In this document: positions 1,205 through 30,432 of the stretch, piece after piece
Numbering within the stretch: position 1 is the first letter of the stretch
Layout: each line of letters opens with the position of its first letter
NCBI GenBank assembly: GCA_031292255.1
Contig: JARLHN010000030.1
Coordinates: 1 to 38,780 of the forward strand
DNA from: Oryzomonas sp.
GTDB taxonomy: Bacteria; Desulfobacterota; Desulfuromonadia; Geobacterales; Pseudopelobacteraceae
DNA: 38,780 nucleotides
Direction: 5' to 3'
Made by a program: the position numbers and the translations under genes
The notes under the pieces: model-generated
The model's input: only the letters and a program-made list of their open reading frames with translations
Told to the model about the DNA's origin: nothing
Database searches by the model: none

Positions 1205-1253
1205 AAAAAAAGCCGCCAGGATGAGCTTCCGAGTGAAGTTGACATCTGGCGGC
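1205..1253 (-). terminator. Intrinsic terminator forming the riboswitch expression platform
   Basis: Read on the minus strand, GCCGCCAG (1253-1246) pairs with CTGGCGGC (1219-1212). The stem extends inward through ATG/CAT and CTTC/GAAG pairs and is followed by seven T (1211-1205). The 5' arm directly overlaps the 3' end of the GEMM-like aptamer, so ligand binding could compete with terminator formation. Confidence 0.75.
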
Positions 1254-1326
1254 CCGGCTGTCTTTCTCTAATAAGACCCGCAGCTTTCCGTCCCCCATCT
1301 CACGGTGGGGTTGGCTTTTTCAGTTA
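1250..1326 (-). promoter_or_regulatory. GEMM-I-like cyclic dinucleotide riboswitch aptamer
   Basis: On the minus strand the leader reads GCCAACC, then a stem closed by a GUGA tetraloop (CCCCACC-GUGA-GAUGGGG), then GGACGGAAAGC, a second hairpin starting GCGGGUCU, and ends GACAGCCGGGC. This is the order of the GEMM-I class: P2 with a GNRA loop, the receptor strand GGACGnAAAGC, P3, and the AGCCGGG 3' segment. Two positions differ from the consensus I remember (GCAAACC, ACGCAAAG) and P1 pairing is poor. The ligand could be c-di-GMP or 3',3'-cGAMP; Geobacter is known for cGAMP-responsive GEMM-Ib variants and I cannot decide between them. It lies upstream of the hemerythrin-PAS gene on the same strand. 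Confidence 0.7.
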
Positions 1327-8539: not shown

Positions 8540-10957
8540 ATGCTACAAATCGCAGACATGAGAACCTATAAAGCGGATCTGCATGTCCATTCGAGCCACT
8601 CCAACAAGCCCACCTACTGGGCGATGCGCAAGTTCAATTGCCCTGAAAGCTATACCTCGCCCGATTTTCTCTACCAGACCGCCCGCAGCCGGGGGATGGA
8701 TTATGTCACCATCAGCGACCACAACAGCATCAACGGCGCCCTGGAGATCGCCCACCTGCCGGGGGTGTTCGTCAGTTCGGAGATAACCTCCTATTTCCCG
8801 GAAAACAGTTGCAAGGTCCATGTGGTGGTACTGAACATCAACGAATCCCAGTTCCGCCATATCATTGAACTGCGCAAGAACATCTACGAGATGGTGGCCT
8901 ACCTCCACGGGGAGGGTATCGCCCACTTCATGGCACATCCGCTCTATGCCCAGAACGATAAGTTGACCACCGGCATCATCGAGAAAGCCCTGGTGCTGTT
9001 CACCACTTTCGAGGTCAAAAACGGTTGCCGGGCGCGACGTTTCAACGCATTTACCGAACAGGTCGTCGGCAGCCTGGACGCCGAAACCTTGGAGCGGCTG
9101 GCCAACCGGCACGATATCCGGCCCTACGGGGCCACCCCCTGGATCAAGGGGATGGTGGGGGGCTCGGACGACCACGGCGGGCTGTTCATCAGCCGGGCCC
9201 ATACGGTCGTTGACGGAGCAGACAGCGTGGATGGATTCATCCGGGGCGTAAAAGCGGGGCAAAGCCGCGCCGAGGGTGATGACGGCGGTCCCCTGACCAT
9301 GGCCCACAGCATGTACGGCATCGCCCACAGCTTTTACCGTGAACGCTTCGGCGAACGCCGGCGCAGTTCAACCCCCTTCATCAGTGCCTTGTTGAACCGC
9401 TTCTTCAATGTCGGTTCGGCACGGGAGTCGTTCATTGAAAAAATCAGGCTGTTCATTCTGAAAAACATCCCGGAGTCACGGGACTACCGCAGCCGCAGCT
9501 TCGAAGAGGTCCTCGACCGCGAGGCACGGGTATTGCTCAACGACAACGTATTCCTGGCCACGCTCAAGGGCGCCGACCAGAACCGCACAATATTCGCCGT
9601 GACCAGCTATCTGGCCAACCGGATGGTCTACATCTACACCAACCGCCTGATGTCGCTGCCGCTCTCCACCGGTTTCTTCGACTACGTCACGACCTTGAGC
9701 ACCATCGGCCTGGTACACCTGCTGATTACGCCATACTACCTGGCCTTCCATCACCAGCATAAAGGCAAGGATGTCATGCGCGGCCTGCAGGAGACCTTTC
9801 CTGATGCCGGAAATGGGGGGAGCAAGGAAAAGATTGCCCTGTTCACCGATACGCTTGACGAGATCAACGGGGTGGCAATCACCATCCGCCGCCTGATCCA
9901 GACCGCACGCAACCGGGGGGTGGAATTGATGGTCATCACCGCGGGAGACGCTGCAGCCCCGTTCCCCGAGGGGGTCAAGCGCTTCGAGTCGGTGGGTGAT
10001 TTTGTGCTGCCGGAATATCCCGAACTGAAGCTCTCCTTTCCACCGATCCTGGACGTCATGGATTATATCGAGCAGGGTGGCTTCACCCGCATCCATGTCA
10101 GCACGCCCGGAACCGTCGGCCTGCTGGGACTTTTGATCTCCCGCCTCATGGACATCCCGGTGGCCGGCACTTATCACACCGACATCCCCCAGTACGTGCG
10201 CAGCCTGACCAACGACGAATTCCTGGAACAGGCCGCCTGGAGCTACATGATCTGGTTCTACAACCAGATGGAAGAGGTCATGGTGCCGTCCAACGGGACC
10301 AGGCAGCAACTCATGTCGCGGGGGCTGCCGGAAGAAAAGATGAAGCCGCTGCCGCGCTGGGTGGACACGGAACAGTTTACGCCGGTCAGGCGCAAGCAGG
10401 ATTTCTGGACCAGCCGGGGTATCCCGGAAGGTATCAGGCTCCTGTACGTGGGACGGATATCTCGGGAAAAATCGCTGGAGCTTCTGGCGGAAACGTTCGG
10501 CGAGTTGATCGATTCCGGCTTCAATGCCTCGCTGGTGGTCGTCGGCGACGGGCCGTACCGTCAGGAGATGGAGACGCGCCTGAAGGGGTATCCGGCCTTT
10601 TTCACCGGCTACCTGGCGGGCGAGGAGTTGCAGGACGGGTATGCCTCGGCTGATCTGTTCGTTTTTCCCAGTGCTACCGACACCTTTGGCAACGTGGTCC
10701 TGGAAGCCCAGTCATCGGGATTGCCGGTGATCGTATCCGATGCCGGCGGTCCGAAAGAATTGATGGTGGACGGCGAGACCGGCATGGTCTTCAGCGCCGG
10801 CAGTGGGGCGGATTTGGCCGCTGCCATCAGATATTTCCTCAATAACCGGGCGATATTGGCCGAGATGGGTCACAATGCCCGCAGGTTTACTCTCCATAGC
10901 GCACCCGCTGCCGGCGACGTCTACAGCACCATCCTGCAAAGCGGCCGGGCGGCCTGA
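8540..10957 (+). CDS. PHP-domain / GT4 glycosyltransferase fusion
   Basis: An 805-residue two-domain protein. Residues about 10-230 are a PHP-type metal-dependent phosphoesterase domain (DLHVHSSHS, TISDHNS, AHPLYA, GGSDDHGG). Residues about 430-800 are a GT-B glycosyltransferase of family 4, with LLYVGRISREKS, VVGDGPYR and the donor-site segment ATDTFGNVVLEAQSSGLPV. A linker of about 200 residues joins them. GT4 enzymes move a sugar from a nucleotide-sugar to lipid or sugar acceptors; both substrates are unknown here. The start is uncertain between ATG 8540 and ATG 8558; neither has a strong ribosome-binding site. An intrinsic terminator follows, so the hydrolase-GH3 pair behind it may be a separate unit. 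Confidence 0.85.
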   Translation: MLQIADMRTYKADLHVHSSHSNKPTYWAMRKFNCPESYTSPDFLYQTARSRGMDYVTISDHNSINGALEIAHLPGVFVSSEITSYFPENSCKVHVVVLNINESQFRHIIELRKNIYEMVAYLHGEGIAHFMAHPLYAQNDKLTTGIIEKALVLFTTFEVKNGCRARRFNAFTEQVVGSLDAETLERLANRHDIRPYGATPWIKGMVGGSDDHGGLFISRAHTVVDGADSVDGFIRGVKAGQSRAEGDDGGPLTMAHSMYGIAHSFYRERFGERRRSSTPFISALLNRFFNVGSARESFIEKIRLFILKNIPESRDYRSRSFEEVLDREARVLLNDNVFLATLKGADQNRTIFAVTSYLANRMVYIYTNRLMSLPLSTGFFDYVTTLSTIGLVHLLITPYYLAFHHQHKGKDVMRGLQETFPDAGNGGSKEKIALFTDTLDEINGVAITIRRLIQTARNRGVELMVITAGDAAAPFPEGVKRFESVGDFVLPEYPELKLSFPPILDVMDYIEQGGFTRIHVSTPGTVGLLGLLISRLMDIPVAGTYHTDIPQYVRSLTNDEFLEQAAWSYMIWFYNQMEEVMVPSNGTRQQLMSRGLPEEKMKPLPRWVDTEQFTPVRRKQDFWTSRGIPEGIRLLYVGRISREKSLELLAETFGELIDSGFNASLVVVGDGPYRQEMETRLKGYPAFFTGYLAGEELQDGYASADLFVFPSATDTFGNVVLEAQSSGLPVIVSDAGGPKELMVDGETGMVFSAGSGADLAAAIRYFLNNRAILAEMGHNARRFTLHSAPAAGDVYSTILQSGRAA

Positions 10958-14786: not shown

Positions 14787-15077
14787 TCAGGAACAGCAAC
14801 CCCCGCCCGGCGCGCGCAGCTTCCGTTCCCGCAGCCACTCATTGATCATCCCCGAGGCGCAGCCGACCCCGGCATCCACCGTGATGGCCTTGACCGGGCA
14901 GTTGAGGGCGCAGGCGCCGCACTCCATGCAGGCGTCACGATCCCCGAGGGAGGCCTGCTTCTCCGCCAGGACGAACACCTGGTGCGGGCAGACCTCCAGG
15001 CATCTGCCGCAGCCGACGCAGGCTGCCCGATCCAGTTTCAGGGTCGCCACGTCCTTTAAGTATCTGAAACCTTTCAT
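14787..15077 (-). CDS. hgcB: Mercury methylation ferredoxin HgcB
   Basis: A 96-residue ferredoxin with two [4Fe-4S] motifs: C20/C23/C26/C30-Pro and C50/C53/C56/C60-Pro, the second reading CMECGACALNCP. It ends with the paired cysteines C94-C95 typical of HgcB. HgcB is thought to reduce the corrinoid of HgcA and may bind Hg(II) through its cysteines; both genes are needed for methylmercury formation. ATG 15077 has GGAGG at 6 nt. It lies 206 bp downstream of hgcA on the same strand, separated by a palindromic repeat. A generic ferredoxin is possible in isolation, but the HgcA neighbour makes HgcB the best call. Confidence 0.93.
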   Translation of the reverse strand: MKGFRYLKDVATLKLDRAACVGCGRCLEVCPHQVFVLAEKQASLGDRDACMECGACALNCPVKAITVDAGVGCASGMINEWLRERKLRAPGGGCCS

Positions 15078-15283: not shown

Positions 15284-16471
15284 TTACAGCAGCTTTCCCA
15301 CCAGCAACAAAATCGCGCCGACGAACAGCGCGCCTCCCATGGCCGGCAGGGCGATCCGCATCTCCTTCTTCACGCCGGAACGGGAGGTGTAGGTGCTGCA
15401 CCCGGTAAAATTGAGGGTGTGGAAGGCGCTCACCGCAGGCAGCGCCAGAAAGAGCGCCAGGGTCGCCGGTACGCCCCAGGCGCGGCCTCCGGCAAGAAGA
15501 TAGAATGCCCCGCTCCAGATAAGTCCCGTCACGGCGCCCTTGACGGAGAAGCTTCTGCCGGGAAGCCAGGGGAGAAGCAGCGGCCCGATCACAACCCCTG
15601 TCAGGACCGCGCCCACATAGGCGAAAAGGGCAGCTATGCCTGCTGTTAGGCCACCCAGCGCGGCCACCGGCAAAAGTATCGCGCCAGCCACGATGGCGGC
15701 GGATTTGAGGGCCATCACCAGTTCAACCGGCACCAGCACCAGCCGTTCGTACAGAGTGAAGGTCAGCTGCTGCATGGCCGGGGTGGTGACCATGCCGTTG
15801 TCCAGATATTCAGGCAGGTCTGCTGCCCGGATGGCGGCGTAGCTGATCGAAAACCCGCAGCGCTTGGCCACCTGGTGGGCGGCTACGCCGGGCGCCCCCA
15901 GGATCGGCAGGATCAGGCGGCGATGGCTGACGACCTGCGCCAGACCGGTGGCCGTGACCCGGCGTACCAGTTCCCCGGTGCCGAAGGTCCCCTTGCCGGC
16001 CGCGCACCAGACGTTGATGCCATAGGTCTCCAACACCAACAACCAGACGTCTCGCCCAGTCAGAGTGTGACGCATAATGTCGTAACTCATCTTGTAGTTG
16101 GCGGTCACCAGTACCGGGGCGTCCGCCGTTGGGCGGCCGATGGCGTAGAGGCCCGGCGGCACCATATAGCTCATCCTGCCGATACCCCAGCGGGCCTTGC
16201 AGGCACCCAGCCGGTCGTTGAAACCGATCTCCGACGAAATCCTGGGCGCACGGCCGGCCGGGGTATCCAGCCACTCCACGAAACCTGGCACCTTGTCGGT
16301 GATTGCTCCGCCCCCGGCGGAGGTGGGCGGCCCTCAACAGGGAGGCTTGTCTATTCCGTCACCCGCCTCCAATGTGCAGACTACGCCGGCTGGGATACGC
16401 TCGGCTTCATTCATTTTGCGAACACTCTTTATTTTGAATGTCTTGGGGTCGCCGTTCTTTACTTGCAGCAT
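15284..16471 (-). CDS. hgcA: Mercury methylation corrinoid protein HgcA with an in-frame TGA (possible selenocysteine)
   Basis: HgcA transfers a methyl group from its corrinoid to Hg(II). The cap-helix signature NVWCAAGKGTFGT is present, with the cobalt-ligating Cys at residue 156 of the full frame. About five membrane segments follow in the C-terminal half, ending with the conserved NFTGCSTYTSRSGVKKE region. ATG 16471 has AAGGAAGGA about 9 nt upstream and overlaps the marR stop by 13 nt. From it the frame is open for 45 codons, meets TGA at 16336-16334, then runs to the end (395 residues if read through). The TGA context is PPC-TGA-GPP. A hairpin follows (separate entry). Without readthrough, GTG 16291 would give a 335-residue protein that keeps the corrinoid domain. 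A nonsense mutation or sequence error cannot be excluded. Confidence 0.9.
16306..16336 (-). promoter_or_regulatory. Candidate bacterial SECIS element with its UGA
   Basis: On the minus strand UGA (16336-16334) is followed by CUCCGCC-GGG-GGCGGAG (16322-16306), a perfect 7-bp stem. The apical loop starts after 18 intervening nt and begins with G. As I recall them, bacterial SECIS criteria are a hairpin with a 3-14 nt loop about 16-37 nt after UGA and a G in the first two loop positions; all are met. The region is GC-rich, so a chance hairpin is possible. An alternative CCGCCC/GGGCGG pairing uses the same 3' arm. Confidence 0.55.
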
Positions 16472-16929
16472 GCAATTGTTCCTTCCTTGGTTGCTTCTGC
16501 CCTGCCAACCGTTATCAGCGCATGATTGAGCAGTTCAAACGAGCGAGTTACCGTTTCCTGCTCGAAGCTGCTCATCTGAGCAAAAATCCTGTCGATTTTT
16601 TTGGCCATGAAACGGTTGATTTTCTCCAACATCGCAGTCCCGGCCGGCGTCAGCTCAAGCAGGACCACTCTCCGGTCTTCGTCGGATATGCGCCGCGCAA
16701 CCAAGCCTTTTTCCTCCAATCCTTTGACCTGACGACTGAATGTGGTTACATCCAACCCCAACTCTTCGGCAATTCTCTGCATGGGCGAACCGGGACTTCG
16801 TTGCACCTCGAAGAGGATATGGCTCTGGGCCATGGATATCTGTTCACCACAGCATTCGTCGCGGCATGTGGCGTTCAATAGCCCGAAATGGCGGACAAAC
16901 AGTTGGAGTTGTTCCTTGATCGATTCCAT
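16459..16929 (-). CDS. MarR-family regulator with cysteine-rich sensor motif
   Basis: A 156-residue winged-helix regulator of the MarR family (PMQRIAEELGLDVTTFSRQVKGL recognition region in residues 53-75, wing with DRR). It has an N-terminal CRDECCG motif (C22, C26, C27) and a C-terminal pair C154-C155, which could bind As(III), Hg(II) or another thiophilic metal. The gene overlaps the hgcA start by 13 nt, so the two are probably translationally coupled and the protein may control hgcAB. A palindromic operator candidate lies 31 bp upstream. No Shine-Dalgarno sequence precedes ATG 16929; TTGCAG and TATGGT spaced by 17 nt would place the transcript start next to the ATG, suggesting a leaderless or nearly leaderless mRNA. 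Confidence 0.85.
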   Translation of the reverse strand: MESIKEQLQLFVRHFGLLNATCRDECCGEQISMAQSHILFEVQRSPGSPMQRIAEELGLDVTTFSRQVKGLEEKGLVARRISDEDRRVVLLELTPAGTAMLEKINRFMAKKIDRIFAQMSSFEQETVTRSFELLNHALITVGRAEATKEGTIACCK

Positions 16930-17150: not shown

Positions 17151-17501
17151 ATGAAACATCTCGCACAAACCCTCAAGGCCCTCTCGGATCCGATCCGTCT
17201 GCGCATCGTCATCTTGCTGCAAGCCGAGGGAGAACTATGTGTCTGCGACCTTATGGCGGTGCTCAAACTGCCCCAGTCAACCGTGTCGCGCCACTTGGCC
17301 TATCTCAAGCGCAGCTGTTGGGTTGATATCCGACGCCAGGGGGTCTGGATGCACTATGCTCTCAGCAAGGAAAGCTGCGATATCTGCAATGATTTGCTGC
17401 TGATCCTCAAGCAGCACGCCAGCAACCTTCCCGAGGCAAAATCAGACCGAAAGGCGCTGGCTGCCTTCCTGAAGACCAAAATCGATTCCCCTTGCCCGTA
17501 A
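17151..17501 (+). CDS. arsR: ArsR-family arsenite-responsive repressor
   Basis: A 116-residue ArsR/SmtB winged-helix repressor. The metal-binding motif ELCVCDL (C30, C32) lies in the position used for As(III)/Sb(III) sensing, followed by the recognition region LKLPQSTVSRHLAYLK. It heads the plus-strand set arsR-acr3-arsC and probably represses it. ATG 17151 has only a weak upstream GAAG. A late CDIC motif near residue 75 could contribute to metal binding. Confidence 0.92.
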   Translation: MKHLAQTLKALSDPIRLRIVILLQAEGELCVCDLMAVLKLPQSTVSRHLAYLKRSCWVDIRRQGVWMHYALSKESCDICNDLLLILKQHASNLPEAKSDRKALAAFLKTKIDSPCP

Positions 17502-17569
17502 CCTGATTGTGACTTGCTGTATCCGCTAAAACGGATATGATATCCCCAGATATGACTTCGAGGTATATT

Positions 17570-18637
17570 ATGTCCGAACACCTTTCCCGCAAACTCTCCT
17601 TCCTCGACCGCTGGCTGACCCTCTGGATCTTTGCCGCCATGGCGCTGGGCGTCGGAGTGGGGTGGTTCGTGCCCGGAGTGGAGAACTTCATCAATCGCTT
17701 CCAGGTAGGCACCACCAACATCCCCATCGCCGCAGGCTTGATCCTGATGATGTACCCTCCCTTTGCCAAGGTAAAGTACGAAGAGATGCCGGAGGTCTTC
17801 CATAACAAGAAGATTCTGGGACTTTCGCTGGTGCAGAACTGGGTGATCGGTCCGATGCTGATGTTCGTGCTGGCGGCGCTGCTGCTGCCTGACAAGCCTG
17901 AGTACATGGTGGGTCTGATCATGATCGGCCTGGCGCGCTGCATCGCCATGGTGATCGTCTGGAACGAGCTGGCCAAGGGCAACACCGAGTACGCAGCCGG
18001 CCTGGTGGCCTTCAACAGCATCTTTCAGGTCTTGTTCTACAGTATCTATGCGTGGTTCTTCATTACCGTACTGCCGCCGTTGCTCGGGCTGAAAGGGGTG
18101 GTAGTGGATGTCGGCATTGGCCAGATCGCCCAGAGCGTCTTCATCTATCTGGGCATCCCCTGCATCGCCGGTGCGCTCACCCGTCTGGTCGGCGTGAAGG
18201 TGGTGGGCAAGGAGCGCTACCACCGGGAGTTTGTGCCTAAGATCGGCCCGATTACCCTGATCGCCCTCTTGTTCACCATCGTGGTCATGTTCAGCCTCAA
18301 GGGGCAACTTATCGTGCAGTTGCCGCTTGACGTGCTGCGCATCGCCATCCCGTTACTGATCTATTTCGTGGTCATGTTCCTGGCGTCGTTCTGGATGGGC
18401 AAGCGGCTGGGGGCTGACTACGGGAAGACGACCACCCTGGCCTTCACCGCCGCCAGCAACAACTTCGAGTTGGCCATCGCCGTTGCGGTGGCAGTCTTCG
18501 GGCTCAATTCCGGGGCCGCTTTTGCCGCCGTTATCGGCCCGCTGGTGGAAGTGCCGGTGATGATCGGCTTGGTCAACGTCGCCTTCTGGTTTCAAAAGCG
18601 AATGTTCGTTGCCGTTGTCTCGTCACGGGATCTGTAG
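17570..18637 (+). CDS. acr3: Arsenite efflux permease of the ACR3 family
   Basis: A 355-residue membrane protein with about ten transmembrane segments that exports arsenite. The ACR3 signatures are visible: [39 protein letters not shown] with the conserved cysteine, and [18 protein letters not shown] 17570 follows GAGGT at 7 nt; a start 11 codons earlier lacks such a site. It lies 68 bp after arsR. Confidence 0.95.
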
Positions 18638-18719
18638 CGCCATCGCGGCCGACCGGCAATCAAACCTTCATGGATCGTTGATAAACTGTCACTTTATTGC
18701 AAGCAAAGGGGATGCGTTC

Positions 18720-19154
18720 ATGGGAAAAAAGATCAAGGTGCTCTTCATTTGTGTCCACAACAGCGCCCGCAGCCAGATCGCCGAGGCGTTTCTCAGGGAG
18801 ATGGCCGGCGACAGATTTGAGGCGCAAAGCGCAGGATTGGAGCCAGGCGTGCTCAATCCGCTGGCGGTCGAAACCATGGCTGAGGTGGGTATCGATATCT
18901 CCGCCAGCCACACAAAGAGTGTTTTCGATTTTTTCAAAAGCGGCGTCATGTTCAACTACGTCATAACGGTCTGCGACGGCGCGAACGCCGAACGCTGTCC
19001 CATCTTTCCCGGTATCACCCAGAGGCTCCACTGGAGTTTTGCCGACCCGTCTGCCTTGGAGGGGGCGCACGAAGAGAAACTGGAGGCGGTTCGCAGGATT
19101 CGGGACGAAATACAGACGGCTGTAAAACTCTTTGTGGAACAAACTGTTGCCTGA
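18720..19154 (+). CDS. arsC: Arsenate reductase, low-molecular-weight phosphatase type
   Basis: A 144-residue protein with the phosphatase loop CVHNSARS (catalytic C11) and the two further cysteines of thioredoxin-coupled arsenate reductases in [14 protein letters not shown]. It reduces arsenate to arsenite, which ACR3 exports. AAGGGG lies upstream of ATG 18720. It ends the arsR-acr3-arsC group and is convergent with galE. Confidence 0.93.
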
Positions 19155-23242: not shown

Positions 23243-24652
23243 GTGCACCAAGAGATATTGAGGCAGATACCGAAGGTTGACCGTGTCCTTGCATGGGAGC
23301 GGATGGCCGCGCTCGTGGCTTCCCACCCGCGCCCGGAACTGCTGGCAGCCATACGCTCGGTGCTGGAACGGTTGCGCGTCGCCGTCCGTAGCGGAGCCTC
23401 CTGCGAACTTTCCGAGGATAATATCGTCTCCCTGGTGAACGTCGAACTCGATCAACGCGGCGCGCCCAGCCTGCGCAACGTGGTCAATGGGACAGGCGTG
23501 GTGATCCACACCAACCTGGGGCGCTCGCCCCTGGCCGACGATGCCGAGGAGGCCATCCGGAGGGCCTCCCGCGGTTACTCAAACCTTGAGTTCGACCTCT
23601 CTTCGGGCGAGCGGGGCACGCGCTACGTCCACGTGGAAGGGCTGGTTTGCGAACTGACCGGCGCCGAGGCGGCCCTGGTGGTCAACAACAATGCCGCTGC
23701 GGTCATTCTGGCCTTGTCATCCCTGGCCCAGGGCCGGGACGCGATCGTCTCGCGCGGGGAACTGGTGGAGATCGGCGGCTCCTTCCGCATCCCCGAGGTA
23801 ATGCTCCAGAGCGGGGCTCATCTGGTGGAGGTCGGTGCGACCAACTGCACCCACGCCCGTGACTACCGAGCAGCGATCAACGATGCCACGGCGCTGCTGC
23901 TGAAGGTGCATACGAGCAACTTTGCCATGGTCGGCTTTACTGCCGAGGTTACGGTGGAGGAGATGTCGGTCATGGGGCGCGAGGCCGGGGTTCCGGTCAT
24001 GGTAGATGCCGGCAGCGGGTGCCTGATCGACCTGTCCGCCTATGGTATTGCCGGCGAACCGACCGTGCGCCGGTATCTGGCTGGTGGCGCCGATGTGGTG
24101 ACCTTCAGCGGCGACAAACTGCTGGGTGGACCCCAGGCCGGCATCATTGCCGGACGGCGGGACATCGTGGCGCCGATGAAGCGCCACCCCCTCTTGCGAG
24201 CCCTGCGGATGGACAAGCTCTCCCTCGCGGCACTGGAGGCCACGTTGCGGCTCTACCGCGACGAGTGGCGTGCAGTCCGTGACATCCCGACGCTTCGCAT
24301 GCTTACGGCGCTCCCGGCCGATGTGTCGCAACGGGCCGACCGCATCCTCGGGATGCTTCGCCGGCGTCTCCCCAAAGCGGTCATCCTGCTGAAACACAAG
24401 GGCGAATCGAGCGCCGGGGGGGGATCGCTTCCCCTGCTCCGCATGCCCACAAGCCTTATCGAAGTGCGCATCGGCGATGCCTCTGTGCAGCAGATCGAAC
24501 AGAGCCTGCGCCAGGCATCGACCCCGGTCGTCGGCCGTATTCATCGGGATCGGTTTTTACTTGATGTCCGCACCATCCTGGACCATGATCTTCCCGGCCT
24601 GTCGCTCTCCCTCGCCGAGACGGCGGCATCTTTGACAGGGGGAAACCAGTGA
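23243..24652 (+). CDS. selA: L-seryl-tRNA(Sec) selenium transferase
   Basis: A 469-residue PLP enzyme that converts seryl-tRNA(Sec) to selenocysteinyl-tRNA(Sec) using selenophosphate. The PLP lysine is K292 in [13 protein letters not shown], and [18 protein letters not shown] is the conserved N-terminal motif. It shows that this organism makes selenocysteine, which matters for the in-frame TGA in hgcA. The start is GTG 23243 behind AGGATC. selB, often next to selA, is not here; ispD follows with a 4-bp overlap. Confidence 0.95.
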
Positions 24653-28351: not shown

Positions 28352-28995
28352 TATTGCCCCTTTACGAAATCTGCAAAACTTCTTCTAAGCTTTCTTTAAT
28401 CTCTAAAGAAATCAAATCTTTGGTTTTTGCTTTCATGGTGTCACGTCCAAATGTGCATTACTTTATTAGCCTTCCACTGGGAATGAGTTTTGTTCGTTAA
28501 CAAAATTAACAACGTCCGTACGCAGTAACAGTTGAATATCTAACGGGTTTAAGTCCTGTCCGGGGAATTGTCCGATTCACCCCGGTAGCTCAAGGGAGCG
28601 GCGTTCTGGTAACAGGGGGTTGTAAGTTCCCAATTGGCAAAGCAGTAGGCCGTAACGCAAGTGAATCTGGATGTAGCCTCGTCAGTTAATTTGAAGATGC
28701 CGACCCAGTGGACGTATGGGGAAGGCCGCCGTCACAGACTCTGATAACGGAACCGGTCTGTGTAATCTTCCGGGGTAGCAGGGACGGCATGTTGCGGAAG
28801 ATATCCAACCCAGTGCTGGAGACCCGTTACGGTGATGTCTAAGGAACATCAACCGGCGCGTATAAGGCAACGAAATCGCGTTGGGCTGTACCGGGAGTCG
28901 GAGGGGTTCATAGTACCGCTTGAGGGCACGGACTAACATAAACCTGCCCGAGGGAAGGGACCCTGCTTTGTTCACGCAACCAAAGAGCGGAGGAG

Positions 28996-30345
28996 ATGGG
29001 GATTGCAGACATGCTAACAACCCCGGAAACAATCAGGACGCTACAGAGGAAGCTCTACCGCAAGGCCAAGCAGGAACCGGCCTGCCGCTTCCACGCCTTG
29101 TACGACAAGGTCTATCGGGCCGACATCCTTGAGTTTGCCTACCGCCTTGTCCGGTCCAACAAAGGGAGCGCCGGTATCGACGGTGTCACCTTCGAGGCCA
29201 TCGAGGAAAACGAAGGGGCACCCGCATTCATTGGGGAGTTGGAAGAAGCACTGAAAACCAAGACGTACAAGCCTGATCCGGTAAAAAGGGTCATGATACC
29301 AAAGAGCGACGGCAGTCAGCGCCCTTTGGGTATTCCGACCATCCGCGACCGGGTGGCTCAAATGGCCGTAAAACTGGTCATCGAGCCGATCTTCGAGGCG
29401 GACTTTTGCGCAACCTCATACGGATTTAGGCCGAAGAAATCAGCCCACGACGCAGTCGAAGACGTAACGTATGCCATGAACACCGGCTACACCGAAGTCA
29501 TTGATGCCGATCTTTCCAAATATTTCGACACCATTCCCCATGCCAACCTCATGAAAGTGGTTGCCGAGCGCATCTGTGACGGCGAAATCCTCAGTCTCAT
29601 CCAGATGTGGCTCAAAGCGCCAATCATGGAACAGGGCAAGGACGGGACGAAACGGAATATCGGCGGCGGCAAAGGCAACCGCACAGGCACCCCGCAAGGC
29701 GGAATCATCTCACCGTTGCTGGCCAATCTCTACCTGCACATACTGGACAGGATATGGGAACGGAACAACCTGCAACAGCGACTGGGAGCCCGCATCGTCA
29801 GATATGCCGACGATATCGTCATCCTCTGTCGGAGGAACAAATCTGACAAAGCAATGGCGGTGCTGCGGCAGATACTGGAGCGGCTGAAACTTACCCTAAA
29901 TGAGTCAAAGACAAAAATCGTCAACACCCACAAAGGAAAGTTTGATTTTCTCGGATTTTCAATCTGGATGGCAGAAAGCAATATATGTGGGAATCTGTAT
30001 CCCCATGTTCAACCTTCGAAGAAATCCTTGCAGGCTATCAAAGATAGTATCACTGACCTCACGAAGCGAGTGAGGACGGTAAAACCGCTTGAACGGATAG
30101 TAAATGAAATAAACACGACCGTGAGAGGCTGGGTCGGCTACTTCCACTTCAAGAATTGTAGCAATGTGCTTGTGAATTTGAAATGGCACGTAGAAGAACG
30201 GCTACGGACACATCTACGCAGACGCCACAAAATCAAGGATAGGGGGACTGGCGGCATAAAATTTAGCAGCCAGAATCTCTATGGTAAGTACAGGCTGTAC
30301 AAAGTGCCGACAACAGCGGGTTGGAAGAAAGTGCATGCTTTGTAG
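28996..30345 (+). CDS. Group II intron-encoded reverse transcriptase/maturase
   Basis: A 449-residue protein with reverse transcriptase motifs (GSAGIDGVTFE, KSDGSQRPLGIPTIRDRV, GTPQGGIISPLLANLYLH, catalytic RYADDIVIL) and a maturase/X domain (VRGWVGYFHF, NLYGKYRLYKVPTTAGWKK). It has no HNH endonuclease domain, as in intron classes that rely on other means to find nicked or structured targets. It splices its intron and copies it into new sites. ATG 28996 follows GGAGG with almost no spacing; ATG 29011 may be the true start. Confidence 0.95.
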   Translation: MGIADMLTTPETIRTLQRKLYRKAKQEPACRFHALYDKVYRADILEFAYRLVRSNKGSAGIDGVTFEAIEENEGAPAFIGELEEALKTKTYKPDPVKRVMIPKSDGSQRPLGIPTIRDRVAQMAVKLVIEPIFEADFCATSYGFRPKKSAHDAVEDVTYAMNTGYTEVIDADLSKYFDTIPHANLMKVVAERICDGEILSLIQMWLKAPIMEQGKDGTKRNIGGGKGNRTGTPQGGIISPLLANLYLHILDRIWERNNLQQRLGARIVRYADDIVILCRRNKSDKAMAVLRQILERLKLTLNESKTKIVNTHKGKFDFLGFSIWMAESNICGNLYPHVQPSKKSLQAIKDSITDLTKRVRTVKPLERIVNEINTTVRGWVGYFHFKNCSNVLVNLKWHVEERLRTHLRRRHKIKDRGTGGIKFSSQNLYGKYRLYKVPTTAGWKKVHAL

Positions 30346-30358
30346 CGAAGAACATCGG

Positions 30359-30432
30359 AAAGCCGGATGCGGGAAAACTGCACGTCCGGTTTGATGAGGG
30401 AGAGCAGGGTGATACCTGCTCTCTACTCTACC
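30359..30432 (+). ncRNA. Group II intron domains V and VI
   Basis: Domain V (about 30359-30393) is a hairpin starting AGCCGGATGCGGG with the catalytic AGC triad, capped by a GAAA-type loop and closing with CGTCCGGTTT. Domain VI (about 30394-30432) pairs GAGAGCAGG with CCTGCTCTC and contains the branch-point region. The splice site should lie near 30432. Confidence 0.85.

Follow-up and report, generated by a model that had tools for sequence, protein, structure and literature searches.

We conclude, with a probability of about 0.93, that UGA46 of hgcA in Oryzomonas sp. is read as selenocysteine (Sec) and that the gene encodes a predicted selenoprotein, because the codon, a hairpin that follows it and the Sec machinery agree by comparison. 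The gene lies in a 38,780-nucleotide stretch of contig JARLHN010000030.1, which is referred to here as the window (Table 1). In the mechanism that we propose, SelB would bring charged tRNA-Sec to UGA46, directed by the hairpin 11 nt downstream of it, and the codon would be decoded as selenocysteine. The product would be a full-length HgcA with Cys45-Sec46 in a disordered N-terminal arm that precedes the corrinoid domain.

The Sec-HgcA described here is a member of an already predicted family and no first report. The preliminary description knew of no Sec-containing HgcA, a claim that gives way to an earlier prediction by Haft and Gwadz (2023), to whom the suggestion of Sec in both HgcA and HgcB is attributed, and to a 2026 review (PMC13188914), whose accessible part includes a table that gives HgcA as NF040863 with the motif CU and accession WP_250697417.1, and HgcB with the motif GVGU. 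Going by the accessible parts of these sources, the protein of Haft and Gwadz has the same family model, NF040863, and the same Cys-Sec motif as the one in the window. The accessible part of PMC2398784, an older paper checked in connection with the review's citation for HgcA, gave no hit for the terms CO dehydrogenase or acetyl-CoA synthase. What the present analysis adds is the prevalence of predicted Sec-HgcA in the order and the phylum, together with a possible exchange of Sec for Cys pairs. A literature search, confined mostly to papers outside subscription, found no paper on the frequency of Sec-HgcA or on its exchange with Cys pairs.

Table 1. Features of the hgcA locus and of the Sec machinery; positions are those of the window unless a contig of the source genome (G000) is named.
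Feature	Position	Strand	Remarks
hgcB, ferredoxin	14787..15077	-	NF040864, 130 bits (cut-off 99); downstream of hgcA; tail GGGCCS
hgcA	15284..16471	-	395 residues by predicted read-through of UGA46; start ATG 16471, stop TAA 15286-15284
Rival start GTG	16289..16291	-	mechanical ORF 15284-16291; the conserved C-U-G-P arm would stay untranslated
SECIS-like hairpin	16306..16322	-	CTCCGCC-GGG-GGCGGAG; perfect 7 bp; consistent with the model of bacterial SECIS elements in the accessible part of PMC13188914
In-frame TGA, codon 46 of hgcA	16334..16336	-	probably read as selenocysteine
marR-type regulator	16459..16929	-	PF01047; gene end overlaps the hgcA ATG
Shine-Dalgarno-like AAGGAAGG	16481..16488	-	9 nt upstream of ATG 16471; read from the sequence
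selA, selenocysteine synthase	23243..24652	+	TIGR00474, 603 bits (cut-off 267.9); 6.8 kb from hgcA
tRNA-Sec pair	G000:C43:6528-6621 and 9019-9112	+	equal scores; 2.4 kb apart; the second directly before selB

The hgcA frame runs through 45 sense codons from its ATG to the TGA and is open again from there to the TAA (395 codons, with U as residue 46), and this TGA is the only one within it. The preliminary description had placed these elements correctly: the marR-coupled start with its Shine-Dalgarno sequence and 45-codon frame, the perfect 7-bp hairpin with a GGG loop 18 nt after the UGA, and selA about 7 kb away. The read-through protein scores 456 bits against NF040863 (cut-off 275) and contains a CdhD domain (PF03599). 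Its residues 153-160 read NVWCAAGK, invariant in 28 aligned sequences, in agreement with what we take to be the cap-helix motif of HgcA, N(V/I)WCA(A/G)GK. In an AlphaFold2 model of one chain, computed without cofactor from 28 sequences and with U entered as C (mean pLDDT 77.1), five C-terminal helices are predicted (residues 240-273, 275-298, 308-326, 334-357 and 364-394), and residues 1-39 and 46-48 of the N-terminal arm have a pLDDT below 50. We infer from this model that the arm is probably disordered; it may also bind metal.

The HgcA of Pseudodesulfovibrio mercurii ND132, the biochemical model, is Cys-only and resembles the protein in the window in having a corrinoid domain, a five-helix membrane domain and an HgcB partner. 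It differs in that its corrinoid-domain model starts at residue 15, so that any arm is at most short, according to the accessible text of PMC7305189. Another parallel is the tail of HgcB in ND132, where the same text describes Cys94 and Cys95 as vicinal soft-metal ligands in a disordered tail beside the corrinoid, although that pair sits in another protein and at the other end and is Cys only, whereas the HgcA arm here carries Cys-Sec. By this analogy we lean slightly towards a Cys-Sec pair that would act as a high-affinity soft-metal site, capturing Hg(II) or removing methylmercury near the cobalt, with one pair doing the work of the several Cys-Cys pairs found in many Cys-only HgcAs. Sec might instead be inserted as proposed and the Cys-Sec pair serve in redox chemistry, for example by reducing the cobalt or the HgcB tail, and not in mercury capture. 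Sec is common in redox sites, and the arm lies beside a corrinoid protein. We nevertheless regard a redox role as rather unlikely, since the Cys-only relatives of the class carry two to six repeated Cys-Cys units, often Cys-Cys-Pro-Pro, which resemble metal binding more than a redox pair, and since the Cys pair of the HgcB tail has been proposed to shuttle Hg(II) (PMC7305189, accessible text).

The reading of UGA46 as Sec draws its first support from the same codon in relatives. When 293 related genomes were queried with the read-through protein, 173 gave matches. Codon 46 was read in 190 loci (30 search loci, 80 named genome-contig loci and 80 fetched stretches, with some genomes included twice) and is TGA in 127, TGC in 42, TGT in 16, TCT in 1 and ACC in 1, with 3 unaligned. 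By the 60 nt from the site, 140 of these loci are distinct: 88 read Cys-TGA-Gly-Pro, 16 read Cys-Cys-Gly-Pro, and 36 are class-level relatives with a different arm, which were excluded from the Sec and Cys counts (repeated Cys pairs, unreliable column). One locus further to the 140 (L101) has Leu before the TGA. Codon 46 is accordingly TGA in 88 and TGC or TGT in 16 of the 104 distinct C-x-G-P loci. Each of the 104 thus has Cys or TGA in this column, which bears out the earlier proposal that Sec takes the place of the second Cys of Cys-Cys-Gly-Pro. The frame is open through the site in the 16 Cys loci, and in 28 chosen sequences P-C-x-G-P is invariant and the protein alignment continuous across the codon.

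Most listed rows of the sampled order have exactly one inner TGA. Among its 95 genomes with a readable match, 84 have one TGA, its position verified in 46 and resting on the stop count in the other 38, and 11 have no stop; three further matched genomes (G030, G074 and G114) had no listed row and fall outside the 95. All 11 genomes without a stop have a Cys codon at site 46. Isolates with TGA at codon 46 include Oryzomonas japonica (L033) and several Geomonas strains. The predicted Sec form is the usual HgcA in the sampled order.

The hairpin lies 11 nt (stem) and 18 nt (loop) after the UGA, and with its 3-nt loop, G in first position, 18-nt spacing and 7 bp it agrees with the bacterial SECIS model as given in the accessible part of PMC13188914. 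Folded in isolation, however, the GC-rich 56 nt do not adopt it as their minimum-energy structure (z -0.68, with an equally good fold in 44 of 200 shuffles), so a comparative test was required. With the loop allowed 14-37 nt away, a G within the first two loop positions and synonymous recodings drawn from the gene's own codon usage, the best stem averages 6.73 bp in the 88 Sec loci versus 4.59 bp in their recodings, and 3.56 bp versus 3.86 bp in the 16 Cys loci. In 65 of the 88 Sec loci, 18 nt separate the codon from the start of the loop. At the seven pair positions of the window, pairing holds in 581 of 616 cells for Sec loci, C-G, U-A, A-U and G-U exchanges included, and in 57 of 112 for Cys loci; sliding the stem by 1-3 nt lowers the pairing in Sec loci to 44-74%. 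Folding energy hardly beats the synonymous recodings (6.8% of the 88 Sec loci at p <= 0.05), and only stem geometry separates the two. By these comparisons, the stem pairing is kept only where the TGA is present. The preliminary description's view of the hairpin as SECIS-like is thus upheld, its geometry being conserved in TGA loci and not in Cys loci.

The genes needed to use such a signal accompany it. Besides selA, the source genome has selB (375 bits), selD (364 bits, with an inner TGA) and two tRNA-Sec genes near selB (78 bits each), which stand for selC, so that selB, selC and selD, for which the preliminary description had suggested looking, are all present. In the order as a whole, the search for selA came up empty in 6 of 84 TGA genomes, compared with 4 of 11 Cys genomes (Fisher p 0.015). 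Since 7 of the 11 Cys genomes do have selA, a Cys form does not imply that the genome lacks Sec. In a closer machinery search of 16 chosen genomes (eight for selD), no selA, tRNA-Sec or selB over the cut-off was found in the Cys genomes G040, G063 and G066 or in the class-level G175; selB and tRNA-Sec are present in the Cys genome G072. Four TGA genomes without selA (G120, G021, G016 and the class-level G273) have part of the Sec set, as gaps would give. Three others, G101 (78% complete), G027 and G052 (both 99%), yielded no selA, tRNA-Sec or selB over the cut-off; in G052 selD lacks an inner stop, and in G027 selD was not found. The hgcA of each of the latter two (L027 in G027, L186 in G052) has the TGA with a good hairpin, and these genomes are either real counter-examples or assembly losses. 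Absence of machinery is soft evidence, because G136 and G011 have selA although tRNA-Sec was not found in them.

Were UGA46 a true stop, it would end a 45-residue leader, and a functional HgcA would start downstream, for example at GTG 16291. The ORF from that GTG does span the whole NF040863 match, and the TGA is kept in the two genomes just mentioned, where Sec machinery was not detected. A true stop, however, does not predict that the protein should be conserved on either side of the codon, that Cys should occupy the site in 16 open-frame loci or that the hairpin should be kept only with the TGA, and we consider it very improbable. A sequencing error or recent inactivating mutation, for which we found nothing beyond the fact that single MAGs can hold errors, has a negligible chance and, like a pseudogene, is ruled out by conservation across genomes, since one inner TGA recurs in 84 of 95 genomes of the order, at the same codon in the 46 checked, isolates included.

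Decoding of UGA as Sec in HgcA is also predicted in more distant relatives. In the class-level outgroup, whose arms are of a second type (type 2), 8 of 37 loci have a TGA in Cys-TGA-Pro-Pro, followed in 7 of the 8 by a closely similar (K/V)APPGA stretch, and the four that were folded (L138, L151, L164 and L178) have a stem of at least 7 bp after the TGA. A phylum-wide draw of 395 genomes gave 117 matches to the HgcA model, and 101 arms could be read (29 loci and 72 stretches, with a few repeat genomes: G283, G078, G144, G145 and G146). A rule (TGA, at least 5 bp of stem, Met upstream), which is not clean alone, flagged 35 arms. By our reading, 34 of these and three close cases are Sec arms, giving 37 of the 101; the remaining flagged arm, L217, was rejected by eye. 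The three close cases (L212, L268 and L283) come from a class of 23 rows with TGA in other settings, and 5 of the other 20 have a hairpin of at least 5 bp; such a hairpin alone is not specific for Sec. In context, 28 of the 37 have Cys-Sec, 4 Sec-Cys and 5 no adjacent Cys, and some share the arm type of the window while others differ. On this reading, predicted Sec-HgcA recurs across the phylum, including other arm types. The order of Sec and Cys looks reversed (U-C-P, U-C-S, U-C-A) in L231, L235, L240 and L265, where the stems have 5-8 bp and the loop lies at a distance of 17-19 nt.

Sec and Cys arms differ in how many further Cys-Cys pairs they hold. Among arms of the window's type (type 1), the 45 residues upstream contain an extra pair in 2 of 88 Sec loci, compared with 15 of the 16 Cys loci (Fisher p 4e-15), or 14 of 15 Cys loci without L139; in one of the two Sec exceptions, L022, the pair lies before the Met. 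Type-2 loci average 0.75 Cys-Cys pairs in Sec arms (n = 8) versus 3.62 in Cys-only arms (n = 29), in a count that cut arms at the first Met found, so that its Cys type-1 row is lower than the fixed 45-residue count. In the phylum draw, any Cys-Cys pair was present in 4 of 37 Sec versus 34 of 62 non-Sec arms (p 1e-5), with pairs undercounted in some non-Sec rows by the same cut and with L208 and L237 omitted from the non-Sec set (contig edge, masked bases). These tests are inflated because the loci share kinship. After correction on starred branches, there were 5 independent pairs, with 0 in the same direction and 4.2 opposite on average (median p 0.125). The pattern of one Cys-Sec versus several Cys-Cys pairs is strong only without kinship correction. 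We see an even chance that a single Cys-Sec in a disordered soft-metal arm takes the place of two to six Cys-Cys pairs, and that this exchange happened many times over in the phylum, in arms of different types (C-U-G-P, C-U-P-P, U-C-P). Not every HgcA can need the arm, since by our count 28 of the 62 non-Sec phylum arms contain no Cys-Cys pair and several HgcAs lack a Cys arm.

A quick tree (LG+G4) of 139 HgcA cores, with the codon-46 site left out, holds 15 Cys loci, one partial Cys locus being too short. Fourteen of the 15 fall within the Sec clade, and L139 groups with the outgroup. The Sec label changes 6 times on this tree versus a shuffled mean of 41.5. This topology fits an early origin of Sec followed by reversions to Cys, a direction that hinges on a weakly supported root (74). 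The presence of Sec loci in metagenome bins titled Nitrospirae (L054) and Syntrophus (L064 and L072) suggests gene transfer.

The Sec-HgcB listed with the motif GVGU in the accessible part of PMC13188914 is similar to the present case in placing Sec in the mercury methylation pair, and differs in that HgcB here has Cys. Sec at the Cys73 site of HgcB was rejected: the codon is TGC in the window, and the site is Cys in all 170 readable loci, a set that includes repeats of one genome (hgcB was not found in 9 further loci, and 4 were unaligned). Some HgcBs end with a single Cys followed by a stop, TGA in six (L030, L068, L090, L092, L138 and L142) and TAG in one; many others end in Cys-Cys. C-terminal Sec at these Cys-TGA ends is possible but unsupported, TGA being the commonest stop (64 of the 88 rows in which a stop could be seen).

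Environmental methylmercury is a product of HgcA. Should the Sec form be normal in the order and common elsewhere in the phylum, annotations that start HgcA past the UGA miss the arm. Hosts unable to read the SECIS would then express a truncated HgcA, and methylation could respond directly to the supply of selenium. A comparison of Cys-only with Sec forms would be a natural experiment on the function of the arm.

Several other features of the window were noted. The MarR-type regulator has a Cys-rich CRDECCGEQ near its N terminus and a C-terminal ACCK, and could be a sensor of a soft metal or of the thiol state; L185 also has an IACCK ending upstream of hgcA. Adjoining the hgc genes, an arsR-type regulator, a sodium/bile-acid-type permease (PF01758) and a low-molecular-weight phosphatase family protein (17151-19154, plus strand) resemble an arsenic resistance set. 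A group II intron at 28550-30431 (plus strand) has Rfam matches at both ends and encloses an ORF that resembles a reverse transcriptase by eye. Finally, a c-di-GMP-I-GGC riboswitch at 1244-1324 (minus strand) lies upstream of a minus-strand ORF (112-1152) that by eye resembles a hemerythrin/PAS sensor.
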